Position numbers and translations under genes: made by a program
Shown: one piece after another, positions 28,901 to 43,309 of the stretch
How the letters are laid out: each line of letters starts with the position of its first letter
How positions within the stretch are numbered: the first letter of the stretch is position 1
Notes under the pieces: generated by a model
What the model was told of the DNA's origin: nothing
Databases searched by the model: none
Seen by the model: only the letters and a program-made list of their open reading frames with translations
Source: an uncultured Lachnospiraceae bacterium
GTDB lineage: Bacteria > Bacillota > Clostridia > Lachnospirales > Lachnospiraceae
Length of the DNA stretch: 49,070 nucleotides
Reading direction: 5' to 3'
NCBI GenBank assembly: GCA_902781895.1
Contig: CACZLA010000017.1
Location: 1-49,070 of the forward strand

Positions 28901-30524
28901 AAACTGTTCTTGAAGTTACTATCTTCTCTCTCTCGGCATCGATAGGAGGATTTGTAACCTGTGCGAAAAGCTGCTTGAAATAGTAGAACAGCGGCTGGTT
29001 CTGCTTTGAAAGAGCGGCTATAGGAGTATCAACACCCATCGAACCGATCTTCTCGGAACCATTTAATGCCATAGTTCTGATACCCTCATGATAGTTCTCA
29101 TATGTATAGCCAAATGCTTTCTGCAGCTTCTTTCTGTCATTACCCATTATTGAAGGAACCTTCTCATTAGGAATCTTGATATCCTTCAGCTCAAGAAGAT
29201 TCATATTCAGCCACTCACCGTATGGCTCTCTGTGAGCGTATTTCTCTTTTATCTCCTCATCACCGTAGAGCTTGCCCTCCTTAGTATCAACAAGGAGCAT
29301 CTTTCCGGGATGAAGTCTTTCCTTCATAATTATGTGCTTCTCATCCAGAGGAAGTACACCAACCTCAGAAGAAAGTATGAGGCGTCTGTCATCCATTACA
29401 TAGTAACGTGAAGGTCTGAGTCCATTTCTGTCAAGGATGGCACCCATAACATCACCGTCTGAGAAAAGGATGGATGCCGGGCCGTCCCATGGCTCCATCA
29501 TAGTTGCATAGTACTGATAGAAGTCTCTCTCTTCCTGTGAAAGAACTTCGTTATGAGCCCATGGCTCAGGAATAGTTATCATAGCTGCCAGTGGCAGATC
29601 CATTCCACTCATTACAAGGAACTCAAGTGTGTTATCCAGCATAGCTGAATCCGAACCGCTTGATGAAATGACAGGAAGCACCTTTGTCATATCCTCTGAA
29701 GAGAAAAGCTTTGAATGCATAGTCTCCTCACGGGCAAGCATCTTGTCTACATTTCCCTTGATGGTATTTATCTCACCGTTATGAACCATGAAACGGTTAG
29801 GATGAGCTCTGTTCCAGCTAGGATTTGTGTTGGTTGAGAATCTTGAATGAACCATGGCGATGGCTGATTCAAAGTCCTCAGCAGTCAGATCCTCGAAAAA
29901 TGTTCTGAGCTGACCAACCAGGAACATACCCTTATAAACTATAGTTCTGCATGAAAGAGACGGAACGTAGGTATTGATATTACTCTGCTCAAACTCACGA
30001 CGGATGATATACAGCTGACGGTCGTAATCAAGATCAGTTGCATAACCCTCAGGTCTGCTGATGAACACCTGCTCGATAGCCGGCATACACTCTCTGGCCT
30101 TTGTACCAAGTACATTTGGATGAATATCAACCTCTCTCCATCCGAGGATGCTCATTCCCGCTTTCTTAGTAATGATCTCGAACATAGACTTAGCCTGTCT
30201 TCTCTCCAGATCACTGTCAGGGAAGAAAAACATACCGACACCGTACTGTCTTCTCTCAGGAAGCTCTACTCCCTGTTCCTTCATCTTTCTGACAAAGAAC
30301 TTATGAGGAATCTGAGTCAGGATACCAACACCGTCGCCGGTTTTACCTTCGGCGTCTTTTCCTGCACGATGTTCCAGATTCTCAACTATGCTGAGAGCGT
30401 CAGCAACAAGCTGATGGCTAACCTTGCCGTCCATCTGGATGACTGCGCCGATACCGCAGTTATCATGCTCAAATGAAGCATCATATAAACCCTTTCTTCT
30501 GATTTCCTCTAATGAACTATTCAT
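25944..30524 (-). CDS. gltB: Glutamate synthase large subunit
   Basis: 1526 residues, full length. The N-terminal glutamine amidotransferase has its nucleophile Cys23 (DNCGIGAV) after a short propeptide. The central and FMN-binding synthase domains follow, including GEGGESDERIASAGTD and AQGAKPGEGGHLPG, and the 3Fe-4S Cys motif in MGCVMMRVCQNDTCPMG. The C-terminal GXGXG beta-helix domain ends the protein. The ATG follows AAAGGAGG, which directly abuts a 7-bp inverted repeat (TTAGTCA/TGACTAA). The long structured leader and promoter at 30525-30728 belong to this gene. Confidence 0.97.
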   Translation of the reverse strand: MNSSLEEIRRKGLYDASFEHDNCGIGAVIQMDGKVSHQLVADALSIVENLEHRAGKDAEGKTGDGVGILTQIPHKFFVRKMKEQGVELPERRQYGVGMFFFPDSDLERRQAKSMFEIITKKAGMSILGWREVDIHPNVLGTKARECMPAIEQVFISRPEGYATDLDYDRQLYIIRREFEQSNINTYVPSLSCRTIVYKGMFLVGQLRTFFEDLTAEDFESAIAMVHSRFSTNTNPSWNRAHPNRFMVHNGEINTIKGNVDKMLAREETMHSKLFSSEDMTKVLPVISSSGSDSAMLDNTLEFLVMSGMDLPLAAMITIPEPWAHNEVLSQEERDFYQYYATMMEPWDGPASILFSDGDVMGAILDRNGLRPSRYYVMDDRRLILSSEVGVLPLDEKHIIMKERLHPGKMLLVDTKEGKLYGDEEIKEKYAHREPYGEWLNMNLLELKDIKIPNEKVPSIMGNDRKKLQKAFGYTYENYHEGIRTMALNGSEKIGSMGVDTPIAALSKQNQPLFYYFKQLFAQVTNPPIDAEREKIVTSRTVYVGKNGNLLEEKPENCHVLRIHNPILTDLDMLKIKHLDKDGIKSAEVSLLYYKSTPMKRVLDHLFVEVDKAYREGASILILSDRGVDENHVAIPSLLAVSAVHKHLVETKKCTAMSLILESGEPREVHHFATLLGYGASAVNPYLAHSTIQELIDDGLLDKDYYAAVEDYDSAVLSGIVKIASKMGISTIKSYQGSKIFEAIGISEDVINEYFPGTVSRVGGITLEDIGRNQDIQHSRAFDPLGLPVDLELDALGRHKFRSQGENHRYNPQTIHMLQLSTREGKYDKFKEYTAMVDAEKTGYLRSLIDFEYPEAGVPLEEVESEESIVQRFKTGAMSYGSISEEAHQTLAIAMNHLHGKSNSGEGGESDERIASAGTDNDRSSAIKQVASGRFGVTSKYLVSAREIQIKMAQGAKPGEGGHLPGRKVYPWIAKTRHSTPGVSLISPPPHHDIYSIEDLAQLIYDLKNANKYARISVKLVSEAGVGTVAAGVAKAGAEVVLVSGYDGGTGAAPLSSIHNAGLPWEMGLAETHQTLVANGLRNQVVIETDGKLMSGRDVAIAAILGAEEFGFATAPLVTMGCVMMRVCQNDTCPMGVATQNPELRKRFRGKPEYVENFMLFIARELREYMARLGVRTVEELVGRTDLLKVKEGLDDQESRICLDKVLYDMSGVDRELQTFHPELKYDFKLENTKDESVLLKSKKVKDILKNVSNAASGNDKSDECSLSLKLTNVDRTFGTLLGAEITRQCPEGLPEDTIWINCTGSGGQSYGAFIPKGLTLNLEGDSNDYFGKGLSGGKLIVKAPAEAKYDPEENIIIGNVALYGATSGEAYIAGMAGERFCIRNSGATAVVEGVGEHGCEYMTGGRAVILGPTGKNFAAGMSGGIAYVYDEHNTLYKNLNKQLVNMEKLEYKNDIEELRRIIERHVEYTGSKKGQAILDNFEENIEHFKKIIPSDYKEMLRLTAECEEQGMNHEQAQIEAFTKLVG

Positions 30525-30533
30525 GATATATTC

Positions 30534-30550
30534 CTCCTTTAGTCAACTGA
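30534..30550 (-). promoter_or_regulatory. Hairpin touching the gltB ribosome-binding site
   Basis: TTAGTCA and TGACTAA pair over two bases immediately before AAGGAGG, the last arm ending in the first A residues of the ribosome site. A folded hairpin could reduce or set gltB translation. Confidence 0.45.
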
Positions 30551-30555
30551 CTAAT

Positions 30556-30622
30556 GCATTCATAAGTCACTTCGTGACTTATTTCATGTCGCGATTCTCG
30601 CCATATACATATGTGCTACGCA
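30556..30622 (-). repeat. 67-bp leader block shared with purF
   Basis: This stretch matches 34660-34726 at 64 of 67 positions. In the transcript it contains a perfect 9-bp hairpin (AUAAGUCAC over GAA) and a second hairpin-prone part around CAUAUGUAUAUGGCGA. In both genes it lies just upstream of the ribosome site. Confidence 0.9.
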
Positions 30623-30664
30623 AAGAAGGCGCTCTGAACCTATGGTTCAAAGCGCCTTTGCTTC
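30623..30664 (-). promoter_or_regulatory. GGCG leader hairpin of gltB
   Basis: In the transcript, AAGCAAAGGCGC begins a hairpin whose stem AGGCGCU..GAACC pairs with GGUUC..AGCGCCU over a 3-base loop. It starts about 40 bases after the predicted transcription start. Similar hairpins occur in the leaders of purF, amt and glnN. On the plus strand it is followed by TTTTTTT, so it could also stop transcripts coming from the left. Confidence 0.75.
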
Positions 30665-30700
30665 TTTTTTTATATCTGTAAAATTTTCAAAACTAATAAT

Positions 30701-30728
30701 AGTATATAACTTTATTTTCAAAAGTCAA
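30701..30728 (-). promoter_or_regulatory. gltB promoter
   Basis: TTGACT (30723-30728), 16-base spacer, TATACT (30701-30706) on the minus strand. The leader would be about 165 bases. The esterase stop codon lies only nine bases upstream of the -35 box. Confidence 0.75.
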
Positions 30729-30736
30729 GAACAAAT

Positions 30737-31606
30737 TTACTTAATTTTATTAACAAAGAAATTCATCTGTTTTGTGTTGGCTTCGTCACTGTACTCATCT
30801 CTCATATTAACGTGAAATACATGACCTGTTTTCTCAGTTCCGAATATCTCGTACTCACATTCCACGCCCTTTGACTTCAGATATTCAGCCATAGTTTCGC
30901 AGTTCTTCAGCAGAAAATCACCCTTAGAACTAAACATATAAACCGGCGGATAGTTCTCGTCAATATGCTCCAGTATATCCAGCTTTTCACCATAGCTAAA
31001 TGGTTTCGAAGTCAGATAATCCTTCATAAGCCCCCTGCAGCCGTTTTCTTCTAAATCCTTCTTCAGGTCATATAAACCGCAGCATAAGCCTAAAGCTCTG
31101 ATACTTATCTTCGGCTTCCTGAAGCCCATTATCTTTCTGTATTCCTTATTAGAATAAATAACCCCATACTGGCTGGCCAGCTGAGCCCCGGCCGAGTCTC
31201 CCACAAGAAAAACATTATCCAGATCTACGGGATAATCCTCCTTATGCTTCATCATCCATTTTATTACTGCAGTTAAGTCCTCAAGGGGTGCAGGAAAATG
31301 GTACTTCGGAGCAAGTCTGTAATTGAAATTGATAACAGTGAAGCCTCTCTGGGCAAGACTTGCCACATAAAACTGATATACTTCCTTGCTTCCATAAACA
31401 TACCCACCGCCATGAATACTGATTATAACAGGAAGCTTTTCGGTCTTCCCCTTAGGCCAGCATATATCAAGTGTATGATATTTTATATTTCTTCCGTATC
31501 TTATATCCCGAACGTATTCAATATCTTCAGGAATCATCAGCCCCTCATCTCTTTTTGCATCTGACTTTTGGCACAGTTTACAAAACATAAAACTACTTAA
31601 TGACAT
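30737..31606 (-). CDS. Alpha/beta-hydrolase (HSL-like esterase)
   Basis: 289 residues. Oxyanion-hole motif HGGGYVYGS, nucleophile elbow GDSAGAQLA, Asp in FSSKGDFLLKN and His in GHVFHVNM make a complete triad of the hormone-sensitive-lipase/acetyl-esterase group. It likely hydrolyses short acyl esters in the cytoplasm; no signal peptide is seen. The ATG follows AGGAGGG, which overlaps the hipA stop codon region (15-base gap), so it is the third gene of the hipBA operon, an uncommon companion. Confidence 0.85.
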   Translation of the reverse strand: MSLSSFMFCKLCQKSDAKRDEGLMIPEDIEYVRDIRYGRNIKYHTLDICWPKGKTEKLPVIISIHGGGYVYGSKEVYQFYVASLAQRGFTVINFNYRLAPKYHFPAPLEDLTAVIKWMMKHKEDYPVDLDNVFLVGDSAGAQLASQYGVIYSNKEYRKIMGFRKPKISIRALGLCCGLYDLKKDLEENGCRGLMKDYLTSKPFSYGEKLDILEHIDENYPPVYMFSSKGDFLLKNCETMAEYLKSKGVECEYEIFGTEKTGHVFHVNMRDEYSDEANTKQMNFFVNKIK

Positions 31607-31621
31607 ACTACACCCTCCTGA

Positions 31622-32731
31622 TCACTCTTCAATCATCAAAATATTAGACTTTATTTCACCAATTATTTCTTTACATTTGTTCTGCTTTAATCCGGCATCG
31701 GTTCCTACCTTTAATAAATCCTCGTCAGATATTCCCTGTCCTTTTCCATTTACCGATGTAGTATGCTCTCCAAAATATGTATCACTATATGTCAGATCAT
31801 ATGCAGGAGCCAGACTCCATTTATTATCCTGTCTTATAAAAGAGAAGTTTTTAGTATGATCATCCAGATTATGTGCATATATATTAAAACACATCACCCT
31901 GAACATCTGATCCAGCTGTTTATTATCTTCTTTAGTAAGGATATTTACTAACTTCATATAAGTTGAATAGTCACACGATGGAGCTCTAAAATCCGCCTCC
32001 AGAATTCCGGCAAATGTAATGCTGAATATCTTTTCTCCATCTTTCCTGTCAAATCTCTCGGTTTTAAAATAACCCTCACATATTTTTGATGGAACAAGTT
32101 TTGTTTCTGTCATTAAAATCCCACATTTTTTAGCACAAAGTGAGTAGTCATACTCTCTTCTGCCGCTGTTTTTAGGATCTCTGCTTGAAGGAAATTTGAT
32201 GATCCATTCTTTATTATTATCACTGATAAGAATCTTCGGTCTGGTTCCACCGCTTGACCCTCCCAAATTATATAGAATGTCCAGTTTATCAGAAGGCTTT
32301 GAAGAAAGAATCTTATCACATTCTTTTGCTATCATATCATAATCAATTCCATCAAATGAAAAATCAGAATTCTTTGAAGGATAATATTCCAGAGCACCCA
32401 TTCCGGAACTTCCCACATATGCAAGCCTGTCGAGAGAACCTATTTCTTCTCTTCTGATTCCATTTTTAAGAAGTATTCTATCAAGAAGAAGCTCTCCCCA
32501 GCTATCGGGAAGACTATCAGCAAACACACCAAACATTCCTCTGAAATACTCTCTGGAATCCATCGAAGGAACGAAGACATCTGACTTTAAAGGCAGCGAA
32601 AAAGGGCTGATTGAAAACCCATCATTCAGCCAATCATCACTATATTGAAATGCCACCCTTCTATCTGCTGTTTCGGCAAGAGTACCAACTATCCTGCCTT
32701 TATAAAAAACATCGAGGGATTTAACGCTCAT
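31622..32731 (-). CDS. hipA: HipA-type Ser/Thr kinase toxin
   Basis: 369 residues. The N-terminal subdomain (VFYKGRIVGTLAET), the Gly-rich loop GGSSGGTRPK (where family members autophosphorylate), the nucleotide-binding Lys in WIIKFPS and the catalytic segment HNLDDHTKNFSFI followed by APAYDLTYSD are intact. HipA kinases phosphorylate translation factors such as GltX and induce dormancy unless held by HipB. The start overlaps hipB by 11 bases. The kinase appears functional. Confidence 0.92.
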   Translation of the reverse strand: MSVKSLDVFYKGRIVGTLAETADRRVAFQYSDDWLNDGFSISPFSLPLKSDVFVPSMDSREYFRGMFGVFADSLPDSWGELLLDRILLKNGIRREEIGSLDRLAYVGSSGMGALEYYPSKNSDFSFDGIDYDMIAKECDKILSSKPSDKLDILYNLGGSSGGTRPKILISDNNKEWIIKFPSSRDPKNSGRREYDYSLCAKKCGILMTETKLVPSKICEGYFKTERFDRKDGEKIFSITFAGILEADFRAPSCDYSTYMKLVNILTKEDNKQLDQMFRVMCFNIYAHNLDDHTKNFSFIRQDNKWSLAPAYDLTYSDTYFGEHTTSVNGKGQGISDEDLLKVGTDAGLKQNKCKEIIGEIKSNILMIEE

Positions 32732-32999
32732 TAATAACCTCCTCTATGCTGCCATATGGTATTCCGGAAAAAAGTGATTTTAGTTCGTTGATCACACCAA
32801 GTTCAATCGCTATTTTAGTAAGTGATTTCAGGGAAATGTCCCCTGTCTGCTCAAATTTTTTGAGAGAACCATAACTGACATTTGAGCGATCAGATAATTC
32901 TTTTTGTGTGATCTTTTTTCTTTTTCTTATTGATTTTATTCTCTTTGCTATTTCCAGATCAATTTCCGTAGGTGTTTCCCAAATATAATTCGCATCCAT
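32721..32999 (-). CDS. hipB: HipB-like Xre-family antitoxin
   Basis: 92 residues with a helix-turn-helix (KKITQKELSDRSNVSYGSLKKFEQTG, i.e. TQKELSDRSNVSYGSLKKFE core). It should bind HipA and repress the operon. The start follows GGAGGG by about 7 bases. It overlaps hipA by 11 bases. Three operator-like sites lie directly upstream. Confidence 0.9.
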   Translation of the reverse strand: MDANYIWETPTEIDLEIAKRIKSIRKRKKITQKELSDRSNVSYGSLKKFEQTGDISLKSLTKIAIELGVINELKSLFSGIPYGSIEEVINER

Positions 33000-33013
33000 A
33001 CATCATCCCTCCG

Positions 33014-33095
33014 TTGCTACTATTATAGCAATTTTAACCAGAAATTGCAAATATTGATAAAATAGTAGCAATAACACTTGATAAAATAAGAGCAA
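33014..33095 (-). promoter_or_regulatory. hipBA promoter with three HipB operator-like sites
   Basis: Three similar 18-base sites occur: 33014-33031 (TTGCTACTATTATAGCAA, a palindrome), 33054-33071 (TTGATAAAATAGTAGCAA) and 33078-33095 (TTGATAAAATAAGAGCAA). The first is centred on the -10 box TATAAT, with TTGCAA as -35 after 17 bases. This fits autoregulation by HipB. Confidence 0.75.
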
Positions 33096-33118
33096 TATCA
33101 TTTTATAAAATGTGGTAA

Positions 33119-33168
33119 TAAAAACACCACCTGACTCACAACTAAAATCGCAAGTTCAGATGGTATTT
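33119..33168 (-). terminator. Terminator after purF
   Basis: In the minus-strand transcript ACCATCTGA pairs with TCAGGTGGT across a long loop, followed by GTTTTTATT. It lies 27 bases after the purF stop and just upstream of the hipBA promoter. Confidence 0.65.
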
Positions 33169-33194
33169 ATCAAAAATCAGAAAAACATATATCC

Positions 33195-34643
33195 TTATAC
33201 CGGATATTCATTGGTAAAGCATGCCGTACATATAGGCAGATCACCAACCATACTCTTAAAATCCTCTATACCAAGATACTCCAGTGAATCGGCACCTACG
33301 CTTCTGCACACCTCTTCACTTGAATGACGTGAGGCAATAAGCTGCTTCGATGTCGGAACATCGGTTCCGTAGTAGCATGGATACAGGAACGGCGGCGAGC
33401 TGATCCTGACATGAACAGACCTGGCACCTGCTGCACGAAGCATTTCGATCAGCTGCCTCATAGTCGTACCACGAACTATGGAATCGTCAATAATGACGAT
33501 ATTCTTATCCTTAACAACGCTGTTTAGAACACTCAGCTTCATGTGTACAGCGGTCTGTCTCTCCTTATCGGTAGGCTTAATAAAGCTCCTGCCTATATAA
33601 CTGTTTTTGTGAAATGCATGAGCAAACGGTATGCCTGATTCAAGAGCATATCCCTCCGCTGCAGCAATTCCTGACTCAGGAACTCCCACTACGATATCCG
33701 CATCAACCTTTGATTTTCTCGCAAGTGCTCTTCCGGCATTAACACGTGCCTCATGCACCTCGATTCCATCCATCACAGAATCATTTCTTGCAAAATAGAT
33801 ATATTCAAAGATACAGTGTGCCCGCTTCTCCTGACAGAGACTCCTGTCAGATGCAACACCTTCCTTAGTTATGGAGATAACCTCTCCCGGCTCCACATCT
33901 CTAATTACCTCGCCACCAACTGAAGTAATAGCAGCACTTTCAGAAGCGAGGATGTATGAATAAAGTTCGCGCACTGCTGTCTTCTCTTCGTTTCCATCAA
34001 GGATGCTTCTATCTATACTGTGATTCAGCTTTCTTCCCAGCACAAGCGGCTTTATTCCGAAGGGATCTCTGATTCCGATCAGCTTCCTCGGACTGTTTAC
34101 CACAACTGCATAACCACCACGGAGCTTTGCAGCTGCATTTTTGATAGCATCCTCTATTGTACCGGTCTTAACTCTCTCTCCGATTATCTCATAGGCGAGT
34201 ACCTCTGTATCCGAGGTAGTATAGTGAGCGAGACCGCGATACATCTGCTCCTCCTTAAGCTCGGAGGCATTTACTATATTGCCATTATGAACCAGAGAAA
34301 GTGTTCCCTTGATATAGTTCATCGCAAAGGGCTGAGCATTTTCGACTACACTTCCGCCTGTAGTCGAGTACCTGACATGACCGACACCGATATTACCCTT
34401 CAGCTTTTCCAGATCACCCGCATGGAACACCTCACTCACAAGTCCCATATCCTTCTTGAGGTTGAGATTCCCCATCGGACCTTCTGTATCAGACACAGCT
34501 ATTCCCGCCGCCTCCTGGCCTCTATGCTGAAGTGCTATCAGACCATAATAAATATCCTGAGCAACATCCTCTCCGGACAGAGAATAGATTCCGAAGACAC
34601 CGCATTCCTCGTGGAGTTTATCATCTGTAAAGTTGTTAGACAT
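33195..34643 (-). CDS. purF: Amidophosphoribosyltransferase
   Basis: 482 residues from the ATG at 34641-34643, which follows AAGGAG by 7 bases; an upstream in-frame ATG lacks this. First committed step of purine synthesis: glutamine plus PRPP to phosphoribosylamine. A short propeptide precedes the nucleophile Cys (EECGVFGIYS); the PRPP loop is VIIDDSIVRGTT. C-terminal Cys residues (ICTACFTNEYP) fit the Fe-S form. The gene is isolated from other pur genes here and carries an unusually long structured leader related to that of gltB. Confidence 0.97.
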   Translation of the reverse strand: MSNNFTDDKLHEECGVFGIYSLSGEDVAQDIYYGLIALQHRGQEAAGIAVSDTEGPMGNLNLKKDMGLVSEVFHAGDLEKLKGNIGVGHVRYSTTGGSVVENAQPFAMNYIKGTLSLVHNGNIVNASELKEEQMYRGLAHYTTSDTEVLAYEIIGERVKTGTIEDAIKNAAAKLRGGYAVVVNSPRKLIGIRDPFGIKPLVLGRKLNHSIDRSILDGNEEKTAVRELYSYILASESAAITSVGGEVIRDVEPGEVISITKEGVASDRSLCQEKRAHCIFEYIYFARNDSVMDGIEVHEARVNAGRALARKSKVDADIVVGVPESGIAAAEGYALESGIPFAHAFHKNSYIGRSFIKPTDKERQTAVHMKLSVLNSVVKDKNIVIIDDSIVRGTTMRQLIEMLRAAGARSVHVRISSPPFLYPCYYGTDVPTSKQLIASRHSSEEVCRSVGADSLEYLGIEDFKSMVGDLPICTACFTNEYPV

Positions 34644-34659
34644 AGTTTTCTCCTTATTC

Positions 34660-34726
34660 GCATTCATAAGTCACTTCGTGACTTATTTCATGTCGTGCTT
34701 TTCGCCATATACATATGTGCTACGCA
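34660..34726 (-). repeat. 67-bp leader block shared with gltB
   Basis: Direct counterpart of 30556-30622, with three mismatches, ending 10 bases from the purF ribosome site. It contains the same 9-bp hairpin and the same CAUAUGUAUAUGGCG segment. Confidence 0.9.
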
Positions 34727-34822
34727 CATATAATAGAATCCGAGATTATCATCTTTGCGTGCAAGCACGCAGATATAATCTCGTATTCTACACATATGCT
34801 TTGCATATGTGCATGGCTCAAA
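34727..34822 (-). promoter_or_regulatory. Large hairpins inserted in the purF leader
   Basis: A long imperfect hairpin of about 60 bases (arms around AGAAT, CGAGATTAT, GCGTGC over a short loop) is followed by a perfect CACATATG/CATATGTG hairpin over five bases. They separate the GGCG hairpin from the 67-bp block and are absent from the gltB leader. Confidence 0.7.
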
Positions 34823-34837
34823 GAAACGCGCAAAAAG

Positions 34838-34869
34838 AGGCACTTCGAGCCATAAAGCTCGAAGCGCCT
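34838..34869 (-). promoter_or_regulatory. GGCG leader hairpin of purF
   Basis: Stem AGGCGCUUCGAGC pairs with GCUCGAAGUGCCU over the 6-base loop UUUAUG. It is preceded by GAAGCAA, as in gltB. It starts about 25 bases after the predicted transcription start. Confidence 0.75.
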
Positions 34870-34900
34870 TTGCTTCACATTCATTATTAAATACAGATTC

Positions 34901-34928
34901 ATTATAATACCGATTGAGAAAAAATCAA
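34901..34928 (-). promoter_or_regulatory. purF promoter
   Basis: TTGATT (34923-34928), 16-base spacer, TATAAT (34901-34906). The resulting leader is about 250 bases, with at least four hairpins. Confidence 0.75.
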
Positions 34929-34978
34929 GTATTTATTCGAAATGCTGTTTATTTATTGACGTGATATTTGATTGTGAT

Positions 34979-35109
34979 AGATAGGCATAAGAAAAACCGC
35001 CATAGCCGTCCAAAGCATTAGCGGTTTATTCTTATAAACTATTTTGTCAGGACTAACCGTCTATCGGTAAACCTACAGGAGGCCAGTAGTTACAGCTATT
35101 GGTCTCTTG
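34979..35109 (-). ncRNA. Candidate small RNA or attenuated leader between the HAD gene and purF
   Basis: A promoter TTGACA (35138-35143), 16-base spacer, TATTAT (35116-35121) points to a start near 35109. The transcript would end about 130 bases later at a terminator hairpin AAACCGC...GCGGTTTTTCTT (about 34988-35032). In between are small hairpin-prone words (CUAC/GUAG, CCG-AUAGA-CGG) and no ORF with a ribosome site. I could not match it to a known riboswitch or small RNA. The purF promoter lies downstream of its terminator, so it seems a separate unit. Confidence 0.5.
34988..35032 (-). terminator. Terminator hairpin of the candidate small RNA
   Basis: AAACCGC pairs with GCGGTTT, followed by TTTCTTAT, on the minus strand. 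The inner region can pair further (UAGC-like). A weaker mirrored reading exists on the plus strand. Confidence 0.7.
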
Positions 35110-35161
35110 TTAATTATAATAACACTTTTCAGCCTATTGTCAAGAAATACGCTTCTTAATC

Positions 35162-36262
35162 TCATTTCTTCTCTGTATCATAAATAGTTGTCCAGTCGTT
35201 CTTCATGGATATCGGTGTCCATCCATTCTCGGCACAGCTCTGATACATTTTATCAGCCTTATCCAGGTTTCCGTTCTCACGTACTGTATCATCACAGCAA
35301 AGCATAAATGCCTGACTTCTGTACTTATTATTTGTTATAACGTACTCTGCCATACTATAGTCGCCGGCACTGTTTCCAAAGGAAAGAACAGGCTGCTGAC
35401 CGATTTCCTTCATGATGTTACTTACCTTGTTCATCTTAAGATCCTTCTCAAGGAATGTACCACCGAGGATCAGATCATCATCACTTGTATAGATATACTC
35501 CATTCCGTCTTCAGTTCCCTGATGCCTTGCAATTATCGACTCATCCGAACCAATGATATGATCAGGACGAACATCCAGTGGAGAATTCTTAATGATTCCT
35601 CTGAGGATCAGACGATCCGTTCCTGAAATAACATATATGGTAAACTGGTTTTCCTGAAGATATTTTACTACCTCAAGCATAGGAAGATAGAAGCCTTCAC
35701 CGTAGGTCAGATCATAGCTCGGCATCTTATGAGTCTTGAACTCCTGAATATAATCTGAAAACTCATCCAGAGTCATTCCCGAAAATGCTGAAGCAACCGC
35801 TTTACCATGGTCTACCTCAAGTCCCTTTGCAGACTCTCCTGTCTCATTCATGGTAATGATCTTCTGAGCAACCTCTTTCTCAGCATCAGATGCCTTATCC
35901 TTATAATCCGGATCCTCTGTTACCCTGTATAAAAGCAGGTTATAATCAAAATAGTTCGGATCTGTTTCACAGAATAAAGTACCGTCAAAATCAAATACCG
36001 CTATACGGTCCTCTACAGGAATAAAGTCGGGACTTCCTTCATCCGTGACAGCCTCAACATAGTCGATGATATCATTTCTCGGAACGCTTTCGCCGGTCCA
36101 GAGAGATAAGGACGCCTTTCCCGAAGCCTCTGTCTTGTCACCCTTTTCGTTTTTTTCTACGAAAACCATAACAACAATACAGGCAACAAATGCAAGACAA
36201 AGAAGCAAAGCTATGACATCACCGGTTTTTACATTTACTTTTTCTTTTTTCTTTTCTTCCAT
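35162..36262 (-). CDS. Membrane-anchored HAD-superfamily phosphatase
   Basis: 366 residues. A charged N-terminus and one helix (about 14-36) anchor the protein, with the catalytic domain probably outside. HAD motif I is AVFDFDGTLFCETDP, motif II YVISGTDR, motif III the Lys-rich segment and motif IV SFGNSAGDYSMAEY. The arrangement is like HAD-IB acid phosphatases or phosphoserine-phosphatase relatives; substrate unknown. The ribosome site is GGTGATG. It stands alone upstream of the candidate small RNA. Confidence 0.82.
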   Translation of the reverse strand: MEEKKKEKVNVKTGDVIALLLCLAFVACIVVMVFVEKNEKGDKTEASGKASLSLWTGESVPRNDIIDYVEAVTDEGSPDFIPVEDRIAVFDFDGTLFCETDPNYFDYNLLLYRVTEDPDYKDKASDAEKEVAQKIITMNETGESAKGLEVDHGKAVASAFSGMTLDEFSDYIQEFKTHKMPSYDLTYGEGFYLPMLEVVKYLQENQFTIYVISGTDRLILRGIIKNSPLDVRPDHIIGSDESIIARHQGTEDGMEYIYTSDDDLILGGTFLEKDLKMNKVSNIMKEIGQQPVLSFGNSAGDYSMAEYVITNNKYRSQAFMLCCDDTVRENGNLDKADKMYQSCAENGWTPISMKNDWTTIYDTEKK

Positions 36263-36335
36263 ACTTTCATCACCTTTCCGGCCTGATTTTGCAGACCATT
36301 TATAATAACAACATAGGTGATAAAAATCAAGTGTT

Positions 36336-37166
36336 TTATGCTATCGGAAATGCAACGTCTACCTTGAAAAGGTCTCCATCAACTGTTATCTCAAACCTTC
36401 CGCCCTGGAGCTCGGTTAGATTCCTTGCGATTGAAAGTCCAAGTCCTGAGCCTTCTGTATTTCTGGAACGATCTCCTCTAACGAATCTCTCAGCCAGCTC
36501 ATCCGCACTGATGTTAAGCATCTCCTTGCTGGTATTCTTCAGACTGAGGATGAGCTCGTCATCCCTTTTTACAAGATCAAGAAAAACTCTTGTTCCCGGC
36601 TGAGCATACTTAACAGCATTGTTCAGAATATTATCTATGATACGAAATACTCTTCTTCCGTCAACATTAATAAGCGCGCCTTCATCGTTAATGTTTTTAA
36701 CCAGTTCAAGCCCGGCCTCTGCAAATTTATCTTCGTATTCAGCACTGCACTGGTTTACAAGCTCCGAAAAGCTTATCTTCATATACTCAAGCTCTATGTT
36801 TCCCGTGCTTGTTTTAGATGCCTCAATAAGATCCATAATAAGCATCTTAAGCCTATCCGCTTTTTTCTCCAGAACATCTATATACTCTTTCGCCTTTTCA
36901 TTATCGATATCCTCTTTTTTAAGAAGATCCACGTAGTTTATTATTGAGGTAAGCGGAGTCTTTATATCGTGCGATACATTTGTGATAAGCTCTGCTTTTG
37001 TTCTCTCGTCTCTGAGTGAAGACTCAACCGCTTTAGAAAGTCCATCTCCAAGACTGTTCAGGCTTTCACCCATTTCCTTCATATCGAAGCTAAGCTCATT
37101 TACATCTACCTTCGCATCCAGATCACCGCCTTCTATTCTCCTACTCGTCTCAAGAAGCGTATTCAC
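36336..37166 (-). pseudogene. Histidine kinase, catalytic half (split from its sensor half by a -1 frameshift)
   Basis: 276 residues: HAMP-like linker, dimerisation box NVSHDIKTPLTSIINYVDLL with phospho-acceptor His, N-box IDNILNNAVKYA and G-boxes EGSGLGLSIARNL. All kinase motifs are intact. The only available start is a GTG without a ribosome site. In the same -1 frame the sequence continues upstream as FRKLQRIIAKIFRYRTDVN until a TAA, overlapping the end of the sensor gene; restoring one A in the AAA run there gives a continuous ...GSFKRIIAKIF.... So this and 37196-38206 were one gene. Confidence 0.8.
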
Positions 37167-37195
37167 ATCCGTTCTGTATCTGAAGATTTTTGCAA

Positions 37196-38206
37196 TTATT
37201 CTTTGAAGCTTCCGAAATACTTCTTAACAAGTCTGTTGGTTATAAATCCGTCCCAGAATTTCTGACATTTGATTCGCCTTACTACATGCATAACACAGGC
37301 AGCTGTTGACAGGTAAAAAACAAGTATTCCGAGTCCCATGAGAGCTAAAACCGAATCATTTTCATCGCCAACCAGAACATAACCCTTTGACGTTCTAAAC
37401 ACAATATCCTCAGCCGTAAGAATTAACAAACCCAGCAGCATTATTATTCCGCCGTAGAAGGCACCCCAAATAATGTAAGGAAATCTATCAACATTGATAA
37501 GCTTAGAAGGCGCACTCCATATGATAAGAATTACACAAAGTATGAAAAGAATCGCTCCTATAACCAGACCTGCAACCGGCTGGTCAAATGTATCACAGTA
37601 GGAGTATCCCCATCTTTGCATAGAATAGACACGGCAGTCCCTACCACTTATTCCATAAACATAGTCGGCCTTAGCACCATTTGTCAGCTCTGTCAGTTCA
37701 GCACTATCTATATATTCAAAATCAACTTTTTCTCCATACTCATCCTTATACCACTGAGTAAGCTTGCCGGTCTTTGAATCATAGCTGACAAAAACTGTCG
37801 ATTCCTTTTCGATCTTGCTGTAGACGTATTTGTAAGATGATGCATTTACATCCATAGTCCAGTCCGCATAACCTCGATCTGTATAGTACTGCCAGCCATC
37901 ATATACATTTTCACCATCAATGCTGCTTGCAGCACTGCAGCCGTTTATGAACTGATTATGAAAGTTTTTATCCTTAAGATCTTCATTCACAGTCCTGTCA
38001 TGTATAAGTATCAGCCCATTAAACACTAAGTCACTCAGCTGATCAGACTCCTCATAACAGCCGGAAAAATTATTTCCATCATAATTCCCCTCAAACACCA
38101 CGTATCTCAGGTAGATACCAAGGGTAGACAACGCCATTAAAAGCGCACCAAAGAATCCTAATACATATAGACAAAATCTTGCCCATTTTTTTCTAATAAG
38201 TTTCAT
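37196..38206 (-). pseudogene. Histidine kinase, sensor half
   Basis: 336 residues: N-terminal helix (about 10-33), extracellular sensing region (about 34-200), then three further helices (about 212-232, 245-265, 287-310) and a basic cytoplasmic tail that stops at GSFKE. It lacks any kinase motif. The 21-base gap to the response-regulator gene and the kinase half immediately downstream in the -1 frame identify it as the sensor part of the cognate kinase. The ATG follows a GAAGAGG-like purine stretch. Confidence 0.78.
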
Positions 38207-38227
38207 CCTTCCATCCTCTTCTTTATA

Positions 38228-38926
38228 TCAAAGCTTTTCGATCTTATAACCCTGACCCCATACAACCTTCAGGTATCTGGGTTCCTTAGGATTAATCTCT
38301 ATTTTTTCTCTGATATGTCTGATATGAACAGCAATGATGTTGTCGGACGCTATGCTGTCCTCCTCCCACACTGCTTCGTAGATCTGAGCTGTCGTATAAA
38401 CTCTTCCTCTGTTCTCTGTAAGGAACTTCAGGATATTGTACTCTAAAGGAGTGAGTCTTACTTCGTCACCATCAACCGTTACAGACTTTGCACTGTCATT
38501 TATAACAAGCCCGCCATTTTTGATCAGTCTGTCATCAGTGTTCTCCTCTGCCACTCCACTAAACTCCGTATATCTCCTTATCTGAGACTTAACCCTTGCC
38601 ACGAGTTCCAGCGGATTAAATGGCTTCGTCACATAATCATCTGCTCCAACATCCAGACCCAGTATCTTATCAGCATCCTCAGACTTTGCAGAGAGGAAAA
38701 TTACCGGCACATGGCTCTCTTCACGAATCTTTCTCGTCGCCCTTATGCCATCCATATTTGGCATCATTATGTCTATGATAATCAGATGAATCTCTGACTC
38801 ATTCATACATTTCAGAGCTTCAAATCCATCATACGCTTTTATGACATTATATCCGGCAGTCTCCAGATAAATCGAAATCGCCTCAACTATGTCCTTATCA
38901 TCATCACATACCAAAATGTTATACAT
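38228..38926 (-). CDS. OmpR/PhoB-family response regulator
   Basis: 232 residues from the ATG at 38924-38926, which follows GGAGAG. Receiver domain with acidic pocket CDDDKD, phospho-acceptor Asp in LIIIDIMMPNMDG, Thr/Ser in FLSAKSED and Lys in DYVTKPFNPLEL; winged-helix output domain ending VWGQGYKIEKL. It should bind DNA when phosphorylated by the kinase downstream. A 20-bp perfect palindrome lies 35 bases upstream of its start. Confidence 0.95.
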   Translation of the reverse strand: MYNILVCDDDKDIVEAISIYLETAGYNVIKAYDGFEALKCMNESEIHLIIIDIMMPNMDGIRATRKIREESHVPVIFLSAKSEDADKILGLDVGADDYVTKPFNPLELVARVKSQIRRYTEFSGVAEENTDDRLIKNGGLVINDSAKSVTVDGDEVRLTPLEYNILKFLTENRGRVYTTAQIYEAVWEEDSIASDNIIAVHIRHIREKIEINPKEPRYLKVVWGQGYKIEKL

Positions 38927-38961
38927 CTTTCTCTCCACTTCCTTAATCAACTTGATCGATC

Positions 38962-38981
38962 CTCATAAAACGTTTTATGAG
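38962..38981. promoter_or_regulatory. Perfect 20-bp palindrome upstream of the response regulator
   Basis: CTCATAAAACGTTTTATGAG lies between a -10-like TATTATAG and the ribosome site of the response regulator. Its position just downstream of the likely transcription start fits an operator or an mRNA hairpin. Confidence 0.5.
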
Positions 38982-39064
38982 ACTATAATAAATAAAACTT
39001 ATTAAAACAAAACTATGTAAAATCTTAAGAATTTATGAAGGTATCATTTTAAATCCGTACGCAC

Positions 39065-39116
39065 AAAAAAAGTTTAACACACATCTGTCATTAAACCAAC
39101 AAAATGTGTGTTAAAC
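39065..39116 (-). terminator. Strong terminator after amt
   Basis: A 13-bp perfect stem GTTTAACACACAT / ATGTGTGTTAAAC followed by TTTTTTT on the minus strand, 23 bases after the amt stop codon. It separates amt from the two-component genes. Confidence 0.92.
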
Positions 39117-39139
39117 AATTTCATAGAAGAAAAACTATG

Positions 39140-40906
39140 CTATTCAACGTCCTGAAGTGCGTCGTAATTCTCTTCACCTGTTCTGATCTTAACAACACGA
39201 CTTACAGGATAAACGAAGATCTTTCCATCACCGATCTTACCGGTGTAAAGAGTCTTCTTAGCTGTTTCGATAACGCTGTCTACAGGAATCTTGCTTACTA
39301 CTACTTCAAGCTTGATCTTTGGAAGGAGCGTTACGTCCATCTCAACTCCACGATACTTCTCGCCGGTACCCTTCTGGATACCGCATCCACTTACCTGAGT
39401 TACTGTAATACCTGTAACTCCGAGACTGTTGAGTGCCTTCTTGATCTTGTCGTAACGTGAAAGCTTTGTGATAATTACTACCTTGTTGATTCCTGTATCG
39501 GAAACCATACCAACCTTTGCCATCTCTGCTGATGCATTTACTACAGGTACTGAAGCATTCTTCTGAGCCTCGCTTGCATTATCATATTCTGAAACTCCAA
39601 GACTTGTGTTTTCGTTTTCAACCATCATTGCACTTGACATATCAACGATACTGAATCCTGAATATGCAGATGCAAGACCATGCTCTGTAGAATCAAGGCC
39701 TTCAAGCTCTTCCTCTTCTGAAACTCTGAGTCCGAAGATAGCCTTGATTATAGAGAATACTATTATCATCATTACTACTGTCCAGCATGCTACTGATGCA
39801 AAACCTATTAACTGTTTTCCGAGAAGATCGAAACCTCCGCCGTAGAAAAGACCTTCAAGTGTGTCATTTCCGGGTGCTGATGTAGTTGCGAAAAGACCAA
39901 CTGCGATAGTTCCCCAGATACCGTTCATCATATGAACTGCTACTGCACCAACAGGGTCATCTATATGAAGCTTGAAATCAAGAAGCCATACACCGAATAC
40001 TACCAGAAGTCCAGCTACAGCTCCGATAATTATTGAACCGGTTGCATCTGTTACATCACAAGGTGCTGTAATTGCTACAAGACCTGCAAGTGAAGCGTTG
40101 AGACACATAGAAACATCAGGTTTACCATACTTGATCCATGTAAAGATCATACATACTACAGTTGCGATTGAAGGTGCGATAGTTGTTGTTACGAATACTG
40201 ATGCAAGCTGATCTGTTGATGTACAAGCTGCACCGTTGAATCCGTACCATCCAAGCCAGAGGATAAATACACCGAGTGCACCGATAACGATGTTGTGACC
40301 TGGGAATGCATTTACTTTAGTTACTTTTCCGTTCTCATCTCTCTCAAATTTACCTATACGTGCTCCTACCATCTTAGCACCAACGAGTGCTGAGATACCA
40401 CCTACCATGTGAATTGCACATGATCCTGCAAAATCGTGGAATCCCATTTCTGCGAGCCATCCGCCGCCCCAGATCCAGTGAGCTTCTACAGGGTAGATAA
40501 GTGCTGAAATAACTGCTGAATATACACAGTAGCTGAGGAACTTTGTTCTCTCTGCCATAGCTCCTGATACGATAGTTGCTGTTGTTGCACAGAATACCAG
40601 GTTAAATACGAAGTTTGACCAATCAAAGTCTTTATATGCTGTAAAGATATCAAATCCGGGCTTTCCGATAAGTCCTACCATATCCTCACCAAGTAACAAG
40701 CTGAATCCTATAAGGATGAATACGCAGCATCCGATACAGAAGTCCATCAGGTTCTTCATGATGATGTTACCTGCGTTCTTAGCTCTTGTGAAACCGGTCT
40801 CTACCATAGCGAATCCGGCCTGCATCCAGAATACCAGTGCCGCTCCTATAAGGAACCATACTGCAAATATATTTTCATTTAATACGCTCATGATTTCGTC
40901 TGTCAT
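39140..40906 (-). CDS. amt: Ammonium transporter fused to a C-terminal PII domain
   Basis: 588 residues. Residues 1 to about 405 are an Amt channel of 11 helices with family motifs (DFAGSCAIHMVGG with the first pore His; VAVHMMNGIWG with the second). A 60-residue linker leads to a PII (GlnB/GlnK) domain, about 470-585, with the T-loop GCGIQKGTGEKYRGVEMDVTLLPK (short: IQKG, YRGVEM, LLPK) and the signature YTGKIGDGKIFVYPV. The ligand residues Gln39 and Lys58 equivalents are kept, but the uridylylated Tyr51 is Met. The tethered PII probably gates the channel by sensing ATP/ADP and 2-oxoglutarate. glnN lies upstream, with a 134-base gap holding a GGCG hairpin. Confidence 0.95.
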   Translation of the reverse strand: MTDEIMSVLNENIFAVWFLIGAALVFWMQAGFAMVETGFTRAKNAGNIIMKNLMDFCIGCCVFILIGFSLLLGEDMVGLIGKPGFDIFTAYKDFDWSNFVFNLVFCATTATIVSGAMAERTKFLSYCVYSAVISALIYPVEAHWIWGGGWLAEMGFHDFAGSCAIHMVGGISALVGAKMVGARIGKFERDENGKVTKVNAFPGHNIVIGALGVFILWLGWYGFNGAACTSTDQLASVFVTTTIAPSIATVVCMIFTWIKYGKPDVSMCLNASLAGLVAITAPCDVTDATGSIIIGAVAGLLVVFGVWLLDFKLHIDDPVGAVAVHMMNGIWGTIAVGLFATTSAPGNDTLEGLFYGGGFDLLGKQLIGFASVACWTVVMMIIVFSIIKAIFGLRVSEEEELEGLDSTEHGLASAYSGFSIVDMSSAMMVENENTSLGVSEYDNASEAQKNASVPVVNASAEMAKVGMVSDTGINKVVIITKLSRYDKIKKALNSLGVTGITVTQVSGCGIQKGTGEKYRGVEMDVTLLPKIKLEVVVSKIPVDSVIETAKKTLYTGKIGDGKIFVYPVSRVVKIRTGEENYDALQDVE

Positions 40907-40930
40907 AATTATTCAACTCCTTTAATCAGA

Positions 40931-40970
40931 AATGGCGCCCCAGCCTTCATACGAAAACCAAGACGCCATT
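40931..40970 (-). promoter_or_regulatory. GGCG leader hairpin of amt
   Basis: In the transcript AAUGGCGUC pairs with GGCGCCAUU across an internal imperfect stem (UUUC/GAAG region). It lies shortly before the AAAGGAG ribosome site. It resembles the gltB, purF and glnN hairpins (GGCAAUGGCGUCUU against GACAAAGGCGUCUU in glnN). No strong promoter is seen between glnN and amt, so it may act inside a glnN-amt transcript. Confidence 0.6.
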
Positions 40971-41040
40971 GCCTTATTTATTACTACTTTATTTCTTATA
41001 TAAATATATTTAATACTAAATAACTATTAAATATAAATGC

Positions 41041-43143
41041 TTATTTAACTGAGAACAGCAGCTGTCCATAGCTTGGGAACGGCCAGTCGTTCTGTGATGT
41101 AAGCATTTCTGCTTCGTCTACGTAACCACGAAGTGTTTCCATGGAAGGAAGCATCTCGTCTCTTACGAATGCTGATGACTCAAATACGTCATCCAGTGCC
41201 TTGAACTTATCGAGGTCTGCTTCCAGTGCCTTTACTGAATCCAGGATGCTGTCTGTAAGCTCTGACAGTCTCTCCATGGTTGTAACCTCGTAGTTGCACT
41301 TAACCTTATCACTTACCTGTCTCATAAGAGATGTTGTCTCGGCAAGTCTGAAAAGGTATCTCTCTATAGCAGGCAGATAGTTCTTACGAACCATATCTAC
41401 CATTGTTGTTCCTTCTATATTTACTGTCTTTACATAGTTCTCGAGCATTATCTCACAACGTGACTGAAGCTCTGCCTCTGTAAATACCTTATGCTCCATG
41501 AGCATCTTCTTGTTCTTCTCATCCAGAAGGTGTGGCATAGCATCTGCAGTAGTCTTAAGATTTGAAAGACCTCTTACCTCAGTTGCTTCCTTGATCCACT
41601 CCTCGCCGTATCCATTTCCGTCGAAGAGGATTCTCTGATGCTCTGTAATAACTCTCTTTATAAGCTCATGCAGTGAACCTTCAAAGTCTGAAGCTCCCTC
41701 AAGCTCATCAGCATACTGCTTTAAGCTCTCTGCTACTGCTGCATTCAGCATGATATTGCAGCATGCGATACTATTTGATGAACCAAGTGATCTGAACTCG
41801 AACTTGTTACCTGTGAAGGCAAATGGTGATGTTCTGTTACGATCTGTTGTATCTCTGCTGAAGCTTGGAAGTGAATGTACCCCCAGCTTCATAACTACAT
41901 CCGGTGTACCCTCGTAAGGCTTATCCTCCATGATAGCCTTAAGGATAGCTGAAAGCTCATCACCAAGGAATACTGAAATGATTGCAGGAGGTGCTTCGTT
42001 AGCTCCAAGTCTGTGATCATTTCCTGCAGTTGCAACTGAAAGTCTCAGGAGATCCTGATAATCATCAACTGCCTGAATAACTGCACAAAGGAAAAGGAGG
42101 AATTGTGCATTTTCATAAGGTGTCTTTCCGGGTGACAGGAGGTTGATTCCTGTATCAGTTCCGATGGACCAGTTGTTATGCTTACCTGATCCGTTAACTC
42201 CTGCGAATGGCTTCTCATGAAGGAGACAAACCATACCATGACGAGAAGCAACCTTCTTCATTATCTCCATAGTCAGCTGATTTGAATCAGTTGCTACATT
42301 AGTAGTTGAATAGATAGGTGCCAGCTCGTGCTGTGCAGGGGCAACCTCGTTATGCTCTGTCTTAGCAAGGATTCCCAGCTTCCAGAGTTCATTGTTCAGA
42401 TCCTCCATGAATTCATTTACACGAGGCTTGATAACTCCGAAGTAATGGTCATCCATTTCCTGTCCTCTTGGTGGCATAGCACCGAAAAGTGTTCTTCCTG
42501 TATATATAAGGTCAGGTCTTTCGTTATATACCTTTTGATCTATAAGGAAATATTCCTGCTCAGGTCCAACGCTTGTTCTTACATATTTAACGTTGTCATT
42601 TCCGAAGAGCTTCAGAACTCTCTTTGCCTGGCGGTTGATAGCCTGCATCGATCTGAGAAGCGGTGTCTTCTTATCAAGTGCTTCACCTGAATATGAGCAG
42701 AAGGCTGTAGGAATGCAAAGTGTGTGATCCTTGATAAATGCAAATGATGTAGGATCCCATGCTGTATATCCTCTTGCCTCAAATGTAGCTCTGAGTCCTC
42801 CTGATGGGAAGGATGAAGCATCCGGCTCACCCTTGATCAGCTCCTTGCCCGAGAACTCCATCAGCACTCCGCCGTCCGGTGAAGGTGATATGAAGCTGTC
42901 ATGTTTCTCAGCAGTAACACCTGTAAGAGGTTGGAACCAGTGAGTGAAATGTGTTGCTCCATTTTCAATAGCCCAGTTCTTCATTTCTTCTGCAACTGCA
43001 TCAGCAACTTCATCGTCGAGTCTTACATTTTCATCGATGGTCTTCTTGAGTTTTGCATAAACATCATCTGAGAGTCTTGATCTCATAACTCTCTCATCAA
43101 ATACCATTGATCCAAAAAGCTCAGGTACATTTGTCTTTTCCAT
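41041..43143 (-). CDS. glnN: Glutamine synthetase type III
   Basis: 700 residues, the length of GSIII rather than the 440-470 of GSI. Characteristic N-terminal [12 protein letters not shown] and [16 protein letters not shown], glutamate/ATP site motifs [21 protein letters not shown] and the C-terminal helical extension are present. It makes glutamine from glutamate, ATP and ammonia, the substrate imported by the Amt-PII protein downstream and the product used by gltBD and purF. It has its own promoter and GGCG-hairpin leader. The ATG follows AAAGGAG. Confidence 0.96.
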
Positions 43144-43181
43144 AGTTTTTCTCCTTTTCTATTTTTTTCGAAAAAACAGAG

Positions 43182-43215
43182 AAGGCGCCTTAGAGAAATA
43201 ACTCTAAGACGCCTT
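43182..43215 (-). promoter_or_regulatory. GGCG leader hairpin of glnN
   Basis: Stem AGGCGUCUUAGAG pairs with CUCUAAGGCGCCU over a 6-base loop UUAUUU; GAAGACAA precedes it. It lies about 25 bases after the predicted transcription start and 38 bases before the ATG. Confidence 0.8.
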
Positions 43216-43247
43216 TGTCTTCAAAAACATATTCTTTATGTTTTCAC

Positions 43248-43275
43248 ATTATACACTTCAAAATTCATTTGTCAA
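43248..43275 (-). promoter_or_regulatory. glnN promoter
   Basis: Consensus -35 TTGACA (43270-43275), 16-base spacer, consensus -10 TATAAT (43248-43253) on the minus strand. The leader is about 100 bases. Confidence 0.88.
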
Positions 43276-43309
43276 ATACTTTTTTTAATTTTTTTCAAAA
43301 ACTTTTTTA

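Follow-up and report, generated by a model that had tools for sequence, protein, structure and literature searches.

The RNA targets of ANTAR proteins are described as hexaloops with A at position 1 and G at position 4 (A1/G4) that overlap terminators, and antitermination of the EutV type requires both hexaloops of a leader (PMC3369931, PMC8934654). Later surveys demanded a dual stem-loop too (PMC8164766). In other bacteria, dual-hairpin ANTAR regulons hold glutamate synthase, ammonium transporters and PII (PMC3369931), and a commentary on such regulons adds glutamine synthetase (GS) and associated regulators (PMC3369936), so this kind of system is already known for nitrogen genes. In Clostridium saccharobutylicum, the ANTAR regulator NitR (Stutz et al. 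2007) is reported to induce the genes of GS and glutamate synthase (GOGAT) under nitrogen limitation by antitermination (PMC6316151, PMC4676874). A structure and surface plasmon resonance (SPR) showed that the EutV dimer contacts one hexaloop (Walshe et al. 2022, PMC8934654), and the same paper asks how far ANTAR sites with a single hexaloop occur in nature and what their function is. Here we describe candidates for such sites, starting from a stretch of 49,070 nucleotides of an uncultured, rumen-type Lachnospiraceae bacterium (GCA_902781895.1, contig CACZLA010000017.1; hereafter the window), where the leaders of gltB, purF, amt and glnN each probably form an ANTAR-type transcription-attenuation switch.

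An earlier reading of the letters alone (the sequence-only reading) had noticed a GGCG hairpin beginning with a GA(A/U)G-type lead before each of these genes and had suggested that it may be a nitrogen-responsive RNA element or a protein-binding hairpin. The four hairpins are indeed there on the minus strand; they fold better than dinucleotide shuffles (z -6.4, -4.8, -4.7 and -6.7, with no shuffle as good for any of them) and fall into a single register in a MAFFT alignment, with a common 15-bp stem. The lead is conserved as well. What had been overlooked is the U-rich tract behind the hairpin and an alternative fold: the visible hairpin is the predicted terminator and not the recognition element, and the lead is not a loose lead but the 5' arm of a second, hexaloop hairpin. 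Together with the 5' arm of the terminator, it folds as a 5-bp mini-hairpin with the hexaloop AANGGC (A1, G4), where GAAGC, AAGAC or AAGGC pairs with the five bases 3' of AANGGC and the loop reads AAAGGC, AAUGGC or AAGGGC. Both hairpins use the segment GGCGYYUY, so by structural prediction they cannot coexist. In the four leaders, predicted energies are -2.6 to -4.9 kcal/mol for the mini-hairpin and -23 to -25 kcal/mol for the terminator; being far weaker, the small hairpin needs help, and the default expected is a stop before the gene. Judged from sequence, the four long hairpins are predicted intrinsic terminators of transcription-attenuation switches.

A covariance model built from the four window hairpins (R1, terminator stem only) was searched in the organism's own genome and in relatives, as the sequence-only reading had proposed, and it found further sites as well as clusters in congeners. 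Scores of 30 bits or more were reached at three more sites of the own genome (2.35 Mb), all on other contigs; two carry the full motif, before pyrG (L098; L and G numbers are our handles for loci and genomes) and before a PPDK_N-type gene (L099), while the third (L100) has no mini-hairpin. All 20 relatives searched gave some match at E <=0.1, the strongest being in 12 congeners, often several per 10-50 kb. With 65 glnN loci added, mostly from rumen Lachnospiraceae such as Eubacterium ruminantium, plus stretches from relatives, the covariance searches returned 251 matches, or 179 once opposite-strand duplicates were removed. A plain pattern (AANGGCGYCTT) was uninformative in the own genome, with 4 matches against 6 for the reversed control, and a repeat search with the gltB and purF leaders (exact 9-base seeds) did not report the element hairpins. 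Similar switches are predicted in many related gut Clostridia. Tandem copies of the whole switch, about 55-100 nt apart, were seen before amt (L108, L114, L115, L079, L063, L046, L051, L053, L043) and before glnN (L181), and three stand in a row in one genome (G361, C5:49291-49508).

The mini-hairpin, with A at loop position 1, G at position 4 and at least 4 bp, is present in 157 of the 179 matches; most of the other 22 look like ordinary terminators. As this count had searched for a hairpin, it was repeated at fixed positions without a hairpin search, on 139 distinct matches of at least 30 bits to a model without the mini-hairpin stem (the training four included). In 131 of these 139, all four loop-side pairs form, whereas 1000 shuffles of the 3' arms averaged 74 and never exceeded 90; A1 and G4 are present in 138. 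In a curated alignment (A4), pre-filtered for the hairpin, 98.4% of mini-hairpin cells are paired, 135 cells are changed on both sides (52 in shuffles) and the covariation score is 0.623 (0.339 in shuffles). Its 122 rows derive from 127 non-redundant ones: six leaders were left out (three amt, one glnN, one purF and, with a much longer hairpin, one aminotransferase leader), and the purF leader of the window, at first removed as redundant, was put back. The stems include AAGAC/GUCUU, GAAGC/GCUUC, AGAAC/GUUCU, GAAAC/GUUUC, AUAGC/GCUAU and ACAGC/GCUGU, the fifth pair being an invariant C-G closing pair. For the terminator stem, 94.1% of cells are paired and 11 of 15 pairs show changes on both sides, with no shuffle as high; at least five T occur among the 8 nt 3' of this stem in 133 of 152 elements. 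The check for base-pair covariation that had been proposed thus came out positive for both stems.

These results bear on another explanation, in which the hairpins would be ordinary terminators of upstream genes, or else DNA operators, and would play no regulatory part in the leader. It is true that the model finds several of the hairpins on both strands and that R1 picks up generic terminators weakly (22 of the 179 matches lack the mini-hairpin); yet the gltB, purF and glnN hairpins lie between strong promoters and their genes, and the covarying 5' arm (GAAGC and its variants) stands largely outside the terminator stem, where termination does not explain it. We regard this explanation as barely credible. 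A generic terminator only was rejected, as it leaves the covarying 5' arm unexplained, and so was a DNA operator, because the arms covary and their spacing varies.

It also seems highly improbable that the leaders are protein-free riboswitches that bind glutamine, 2-oxoglutarate or a similar ligand. The metabolite theme of the regulon would suit them, but the conserved antiterminator is about 16 nt, a 6-nt loop and a covarying stem, which leaves little for a binding pocket, and no Rfam family (4227 in release 15) reached its gathering threshold anywhere in the window, nor on the elements when 20 other loci were scanned. Below the threshold, a scan of 30500-43400 gave mir-290 (E 4.3) as the top match that overlaps an element. 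A known riboswitch or other Rfam family was rejected, no match lying on the elements. The single gathering-threshold match in those 20 loci is a TwoAYGGAY RNA (RF01731, 93 bits; L181:515-679), off the elements and about 800 nt from the tandem switches before glnN in that locus.

The elements do not occur equally before unrelated genes, the other check that had been proposed. Nitrogen or glutamine genes lie downstream of 53 of 66 score-selected elements of the own genome and relatives: amt (17, tandem elements before one gene being counted separately), gltB (11), glnN (6), purF (6), pyrG (5), carA (4), asnB-like genes (2), gltD (1) and another glutamine synthetase (1). Two more are cut by contig ends and 11 precede other genes, 8 of which belong to the subfamily described below. 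The 66 are chosen matches, roughly E <=1e-3, and not all matches, with at least one false element among them; loci selected for glnN (L102-L166) were excluded from this count. Among the top-scoring loci of the order, 28 of 31 elements precede glnN, amt, gltB, asnB or asnA, where three loci (L174, L178, L188) were reassigned by eye from "other" to glnN, glnN and amt, respectively. The 26 loci listed from the class search, assigned by eye from the first residues, comprise 15 glnN, 4 asnA, 3 amt, 1 purF and 3 others. An ORF with masked bases was scored as "other" in these gene counts. That this is a new RNA element or protein-binding hairpin, as the sequence-only reading proposed, stands as far as a covarying element before nitrogen genes is concerned, and the element is most likely protein-binding and nitrogen-responsive; the supposed unlikeness to ANTAR targets falls, only the second hexaloop being missing. 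In the subfamily, the stems continue AUC...GAU past the 3' arm (L099:499-549, L055, L065, L071, L057, L092, L093, L193, L230, L238); it precedes PPDK_N-protein, RelA/SpoT-like, AMP-ligase-like and transporter-like genes, has one copy in the own genome, and may form another arm of the ANTAR regulon or belong to a separate system.

It had been claimed that ANTAR targets do not look like this, which is contradicted by the ANTAR-type hexaloop in the 5' arm and by the company that the element keeps, since it travels with ANTAR genes. A single ANTAR match turned up in the own genome, which is 92% complete: a 192-aa protein (PF03861, E 2.8e-14) with a pseudo-receiver, a coiled coil and an ANTAR domain, whose gene comes after carB and a glutamine-synthetase gene, in that order. 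The model predicted for this protein (pLDDT 91) resembles RNA-bound EutV (6ww6) most, followed by Rv1626, EutV and AmiR, and the EutV RNA-contact residues Lys149, Glu160 and Met172 are kept. In the order, PF03861 is present in 94 of 97 element-positive genomes and in 149 of 197 without an element match (Fisher p 1e-6), and in the class in 56 of 60 and 98 of 233, respectively (Fisher p 5e-14), the tables being tallied by hand, the two sets overlapping in some genomes and the p values ignoring ancestry. The element negatives are soft; the searches of more than 40 genomes (R2) used stricter filters with at most 19 candidates scored per genome.

Proximity points the same way. Of the 56 double-positive genomes of the class, at least 23 have an element no more than 10 kb away from the ANTAR gene, and the distance is within 26 kb in at least 24 of 94 genomes of the order, 13 of them within 10 kb (positions picked by eye in both sets), where uniform placement would give less than 1% per element within 10 kb. 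In five congeners (G001, G005, G007, G008, G009), the element is next downstream of the ANTAR gene, and glnN follows where the stretch is long enough. In 30 of 31 genomes, the ANTAR gene is encoded immediately behind a glutamine-synthetase gene and in the same direction; the 31 are a selected set of best matches plus contigs with both ANTAR and element, from which one contig (G249) was left out as its ANTAR gene was not recognised in the blast step. Judged by eye in an alignment, the 30 GS-associated receivers have lost the phosphoacceptor Asp (Asn in the own protein); the sole exception without a GS neighbour (L218) has a EutV-like receiver and keeps it. The GS gene adjoining the own ANTAR gene (L101, G000:C67, 3148-5025, minus strand) scores 267 bits against a curated GlnA cut-off of 429; its product may be a glutamine synthetase that has diverged and possibly acts as a sensor.

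That an ANTAR protein reads the element is what we infer from their co-occurrence and adjacency and from the motif. The same switch could instead have its hexaloop held by another RNA-binding protein, or the mini-hairpin could merely tune the folding kinetics of the terminator, for which the few element-bearing genomes without a detected ANTAR gene may speak; as A1, G4 and the C-G closing pair match ANTAR targets, and co-occurrence and proximity with ANTAR-GS pairs are strong, we consider this very unlikely.

The spacing between promoter and hairpin bears on a second, upstream hexaloop (P1). Promoter positions and predicted RNA starts come from consensus scoring only. In 29 of 39 glnN leaders, only 10-12 nt separate the end of the -10 box from the hairpin; among the 108 of 149 curated elements with a promoter score of at least 9.5, the gap is 9-12 nt in 51 and 22-36 nt in 42, and in a second set (order members and congeners, 60 leaders) it is 9-12 nt in 34 of 49 scored. 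The long class prevails before gltB (11 of 17 scored leaders), pyrG (8 of 10) and purF (8 of 10), with 22-38 nt. With a transcription start about 7 nt past the -10 box, as is general, leaders of the short class would have perhaps 3-6 bases ahead of the hairpin, and many leaders would have no room for an upstream P1. A1/G4 hexaloops on stems of 3 bp or more are found upstream about as often as in shuffled sequence, within 30 nt (12 of 149 elements, 12.5 in shuffles) as well as within 45 nt (21 of 149, 19.7 in shuffles), and the canonical dual hexaloop was therefore rejected. Many gltB, pyrG, purF and gltD promoters (e.g., L114:6188, L107:14301) share by eye an extended sequence like TTGACTTTTnAAAAnTAAAGTnATATACT...TTGTTTAnAAAATTAA, which was not noticed before glnN and may be the site of a further regulator.

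Several points weigh against an ANTAR-type switch with one hexaloop, and the first group concerns P1. Since EutV needs two hexaloops and here there is one, the analogy fails at its defining point. The leaders could be canonical dual-hexaloop targets whose P1 is degenerate or further upstream than searched: described ANTAR antiterminators have P1 and P2, leaders of the gltB, pyrG and purF type usually have enough room, the leaders of the window itself belong to the long class, with 24-36 nt from the -10 box to the hairpin, and in its glnN leader a small hairpin whose loop has five bases (ACAUA-AAGAA-UAUGU) lies upstream and could be a degenerate P1. Against this stand the shuffle-level counts of upstream hexaloops and the short gaps of most glnN and second-set leaders, so that we judge it unlikely. 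The second group concerns RNA and protein. Counted by pairs, mini-hairpin changes on both sides occur in 4 of 5, which does not set the stem apart from shuffles (3.4; 244 of 500 shuffles as high). ANTAR occurs in 243 of 294 genomes of the clade anyway, so part of the association is shared ancestry. No ANTAR match was found in 3 of 97 element-positive genomes of the order, two of them (G283, G297) with convincing elements before asnA and glnN and one (G270) with a long inverted repeat that has no recognised gene behind it, nor in 4 of 60 of the class (G343, G487, G546, G562). In the own ANTAR protein, the EutV RNA-contact Tyr164 is His, as in AmiR, and Arg142, Arg168, Arg175 and Arg177 differ. 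Finally, the AUC...GAU subfamily (8 of 66), with an identical hexaloop, precedes genes not obviously related to nitrogen, and the regulon mixes glutamine makers and users, which makes the sign of control uncertain.

With these points weighed, an ANTAR-type switch without P1 is a single-hexaloop variant, set apart from the dual-hexaloop family. In the proposed mechanism, the leader RNA would fold either as the 5-bp AANGGC hairpin or as the long GC-rich hairpin followed by a U-rich tract, the terminator. By default the terminator would win and transcription would end before the gene, while an ANTAR protein would capture the hexaloop as it emerges from RNA polymerase and stabilise the mini-hairpin; the mini-hairpin so held would prevent the terminator and give read-through into nitrogen and glutamine genes. 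A hexaloop within the first few predicted RNA nucleotides may replace the P1 "recruitment" hairpin, and the hexaloop does lie near the predicted 5' end in most glnN and asnB leaders and in many amt leaders. The adjacent glutamine synthetase would report glutamine status to the ANTAR protein, with antitermination under nitrogen limitation. As the receivers lack the phosphoacceptor Asp, this synthetase is a likely partner; its role as glutamine sensor, by analogy with AmiC-AmiR, NasS-NasT and NitR, is more speculative, and a regulon with one glutamine maker and many users speaks against it. The wider picture, a Clostridia-wide nitrogen/glutamine regulon of 5'-end single-hexaloop ANTAR antiterminators in which promoter-proximal timing takes the place of P1, and sensing by a GS homologue serves a non-phosphorylatable ANTAR protein, is put forward tentatively and may well be wrong as a whole.

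The features of the window are collected in Table 1. The four genes are the nitrogen genes that the sequence-only reading had named, and its promoters of the form TTGA(C/T)-16-TAtAnT before gltB, purF and glnN, which are of the sigma-70 type, are present, their -10 boxes ending 36, 24 and 26 nt, respectively, before the 5' arm of the element. For amt, the best candidate is a weaker site resembling a promoter (TTAATA-16-TATATT), which lies in AT-rich DNA; the amt hairpin begins about 60 nt past the glnN stop codon and could be an attenuator within a glnN-amt transcript.

Table 1. Genes, promoters and alternative leader hairpins of the window (positions in the window).
Feature	Position	Strand	Basis and remarks
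gltB	25944-30524	minus	Glutamate synthase large subunit; Pfam
gltD	24353-25930	minus	Downstream of gltB
purF	33195-34667	minus	Amidophosphoribosyltransferase; NCBIfam TIGR01134, 488 bits (cut-off 350)
amt	39140-40906	minus	Ammonium transporter with C-terminal PII domain fusion; Pfam
glnN	41041-43143	minus	Type III glutamine synthetase; Pfam
gltB leader mini-hairpin, GAAGC-[AAAGGC]-GCUUU, A1/G4 hexaloop	30649-30664	minus	Sequence, stem covariation in relatives; about -3.3 kcal/mol alone
gltB leader terminator hairpin (predicted), 15 bp	30626-30658	minus	Followed by UUCUUU (30627-30622); about -24.5 kcal/mol; excludes mini-hairpin
purF leader mini-hairpin, GAAGC-[AAAGGC]-GCUUC	34861-34876	minus	Sequence, stem covariation
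purF leader terminator hairpin (predicted)	34838-34869	minus	Followed by UCUUUUU, overlapping last hairpin base; folding and covariation
amt leader mini-hairpin, AAGGC-[AAUGGC]-GUCUU	40960-40975	minus	Sequence, stem covariation
amt leader terminator hairpin (predicted)	40931-40970	minus	Followed by AUUUCU, overlapping last hairpin bases; between glnN stop codon and amt
glnN leader mini-hairpin, AAGAC-[AAAGGC]-GUCUU	43206-43221	minus	Sequence, stem covariation
glnN leader terminator hairpin (predicted)	43182-43215	minus	Followed by UUCUCUGUUUUUU, overlapping last hairpin bases; folding and covariation
gltB promoter, TTGACT-16-TATACT	30701-30728	minus	Sequence, consensus scoring
purF promoter, TTGATT-16-TATAAT	34901-34928	minus	Sequence, consensus scoring
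glnN promoter, TTGACA-16-TATAAT	43248-43275	minus	Sequence, consensus scoring

Other observations in the window concern the same leaders and their surroundings. The gltB and purF leaders share, 3' of the switch, a 67-base repeat (30556-30622 and 34660-34726, 96% identical), with no further copy found in the own genome, and 34655-34796 has a weak likeness to Clostridiales-1 RNA (RF01699, E 3e-4, below the gathering score). Between gltB and purF (31622-32999) lie HipA-like and helix-turn-helix (HTH) genes that resemble a HipBA toxin-antitoxin module.

In searches of open-licence literature, no listed title or abstract start described a single-hexaloop architecture, a general pairing of GS with ANTAR or this regulon; some element sites may already stand in the supplementary tables of Ramesh 2012. 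The large candidate set, with its clear gene theme and strong covariation, makes the single-hexaloop question of PMC8934654 directly testable, and a motif that has no Rfam match would supply annotators with a usable model. If the proposal is true, it would explain the control of ammonia assimilation and glutamine use in many rumen and gut Clostridia, and a regulator that binds RNA would have glutamine synthetase as its sensor, which would parallel, at the level of RNA, the control of TnrA by GS in Bacillus (PMC6316151).

Compared with known systems, the element resembles the targets of EutV (eut), NasR (nasF) and AmiR (amiE), which are dual-hexaloop antiterminators (Ramesh et al. 2012, PMC3369931), in its A1/G4 hexaloop, short stem and C-G closing pair, in the overlap of the hairpin with an intrinsic terminator and in the nitrogen-themed regulon. 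It differs from them in having one hexaloop, which often stands right at the predicted start of the RNA, in a loop that is nearly always AANGGC and forms the base of the terminator stem, and in targets that include pyrG, carA, asnA, asnB and purF. The contact of EutV with one hexaloop is a precedent with a difference, since eut leaders still need both (PMC8934654). As with NitR, an ANTAR protein is tied to GS and GOGAT genes in Clostridia, and the own protein shares the features given for NitR-type regulators in review descriptions, namely a receiver-like domain, a coiled coil, an ANTAR domain and a GS neighbour. Unlike in phosphorylated regulators of the EutV type, the phosphoacceptor Asp is absent (L218 excepted); the pseudo-receiver is like that of AmiR. 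Regulation of the ANTAR protein by a partner sensor, as proposed here, would follow AmiC-AmiR (PMC8934654) and NasS-NasT (PMC3795266), whereas the neighbour in these Clostridia is a glutamine-synthetase homologue, with a putative interaction.

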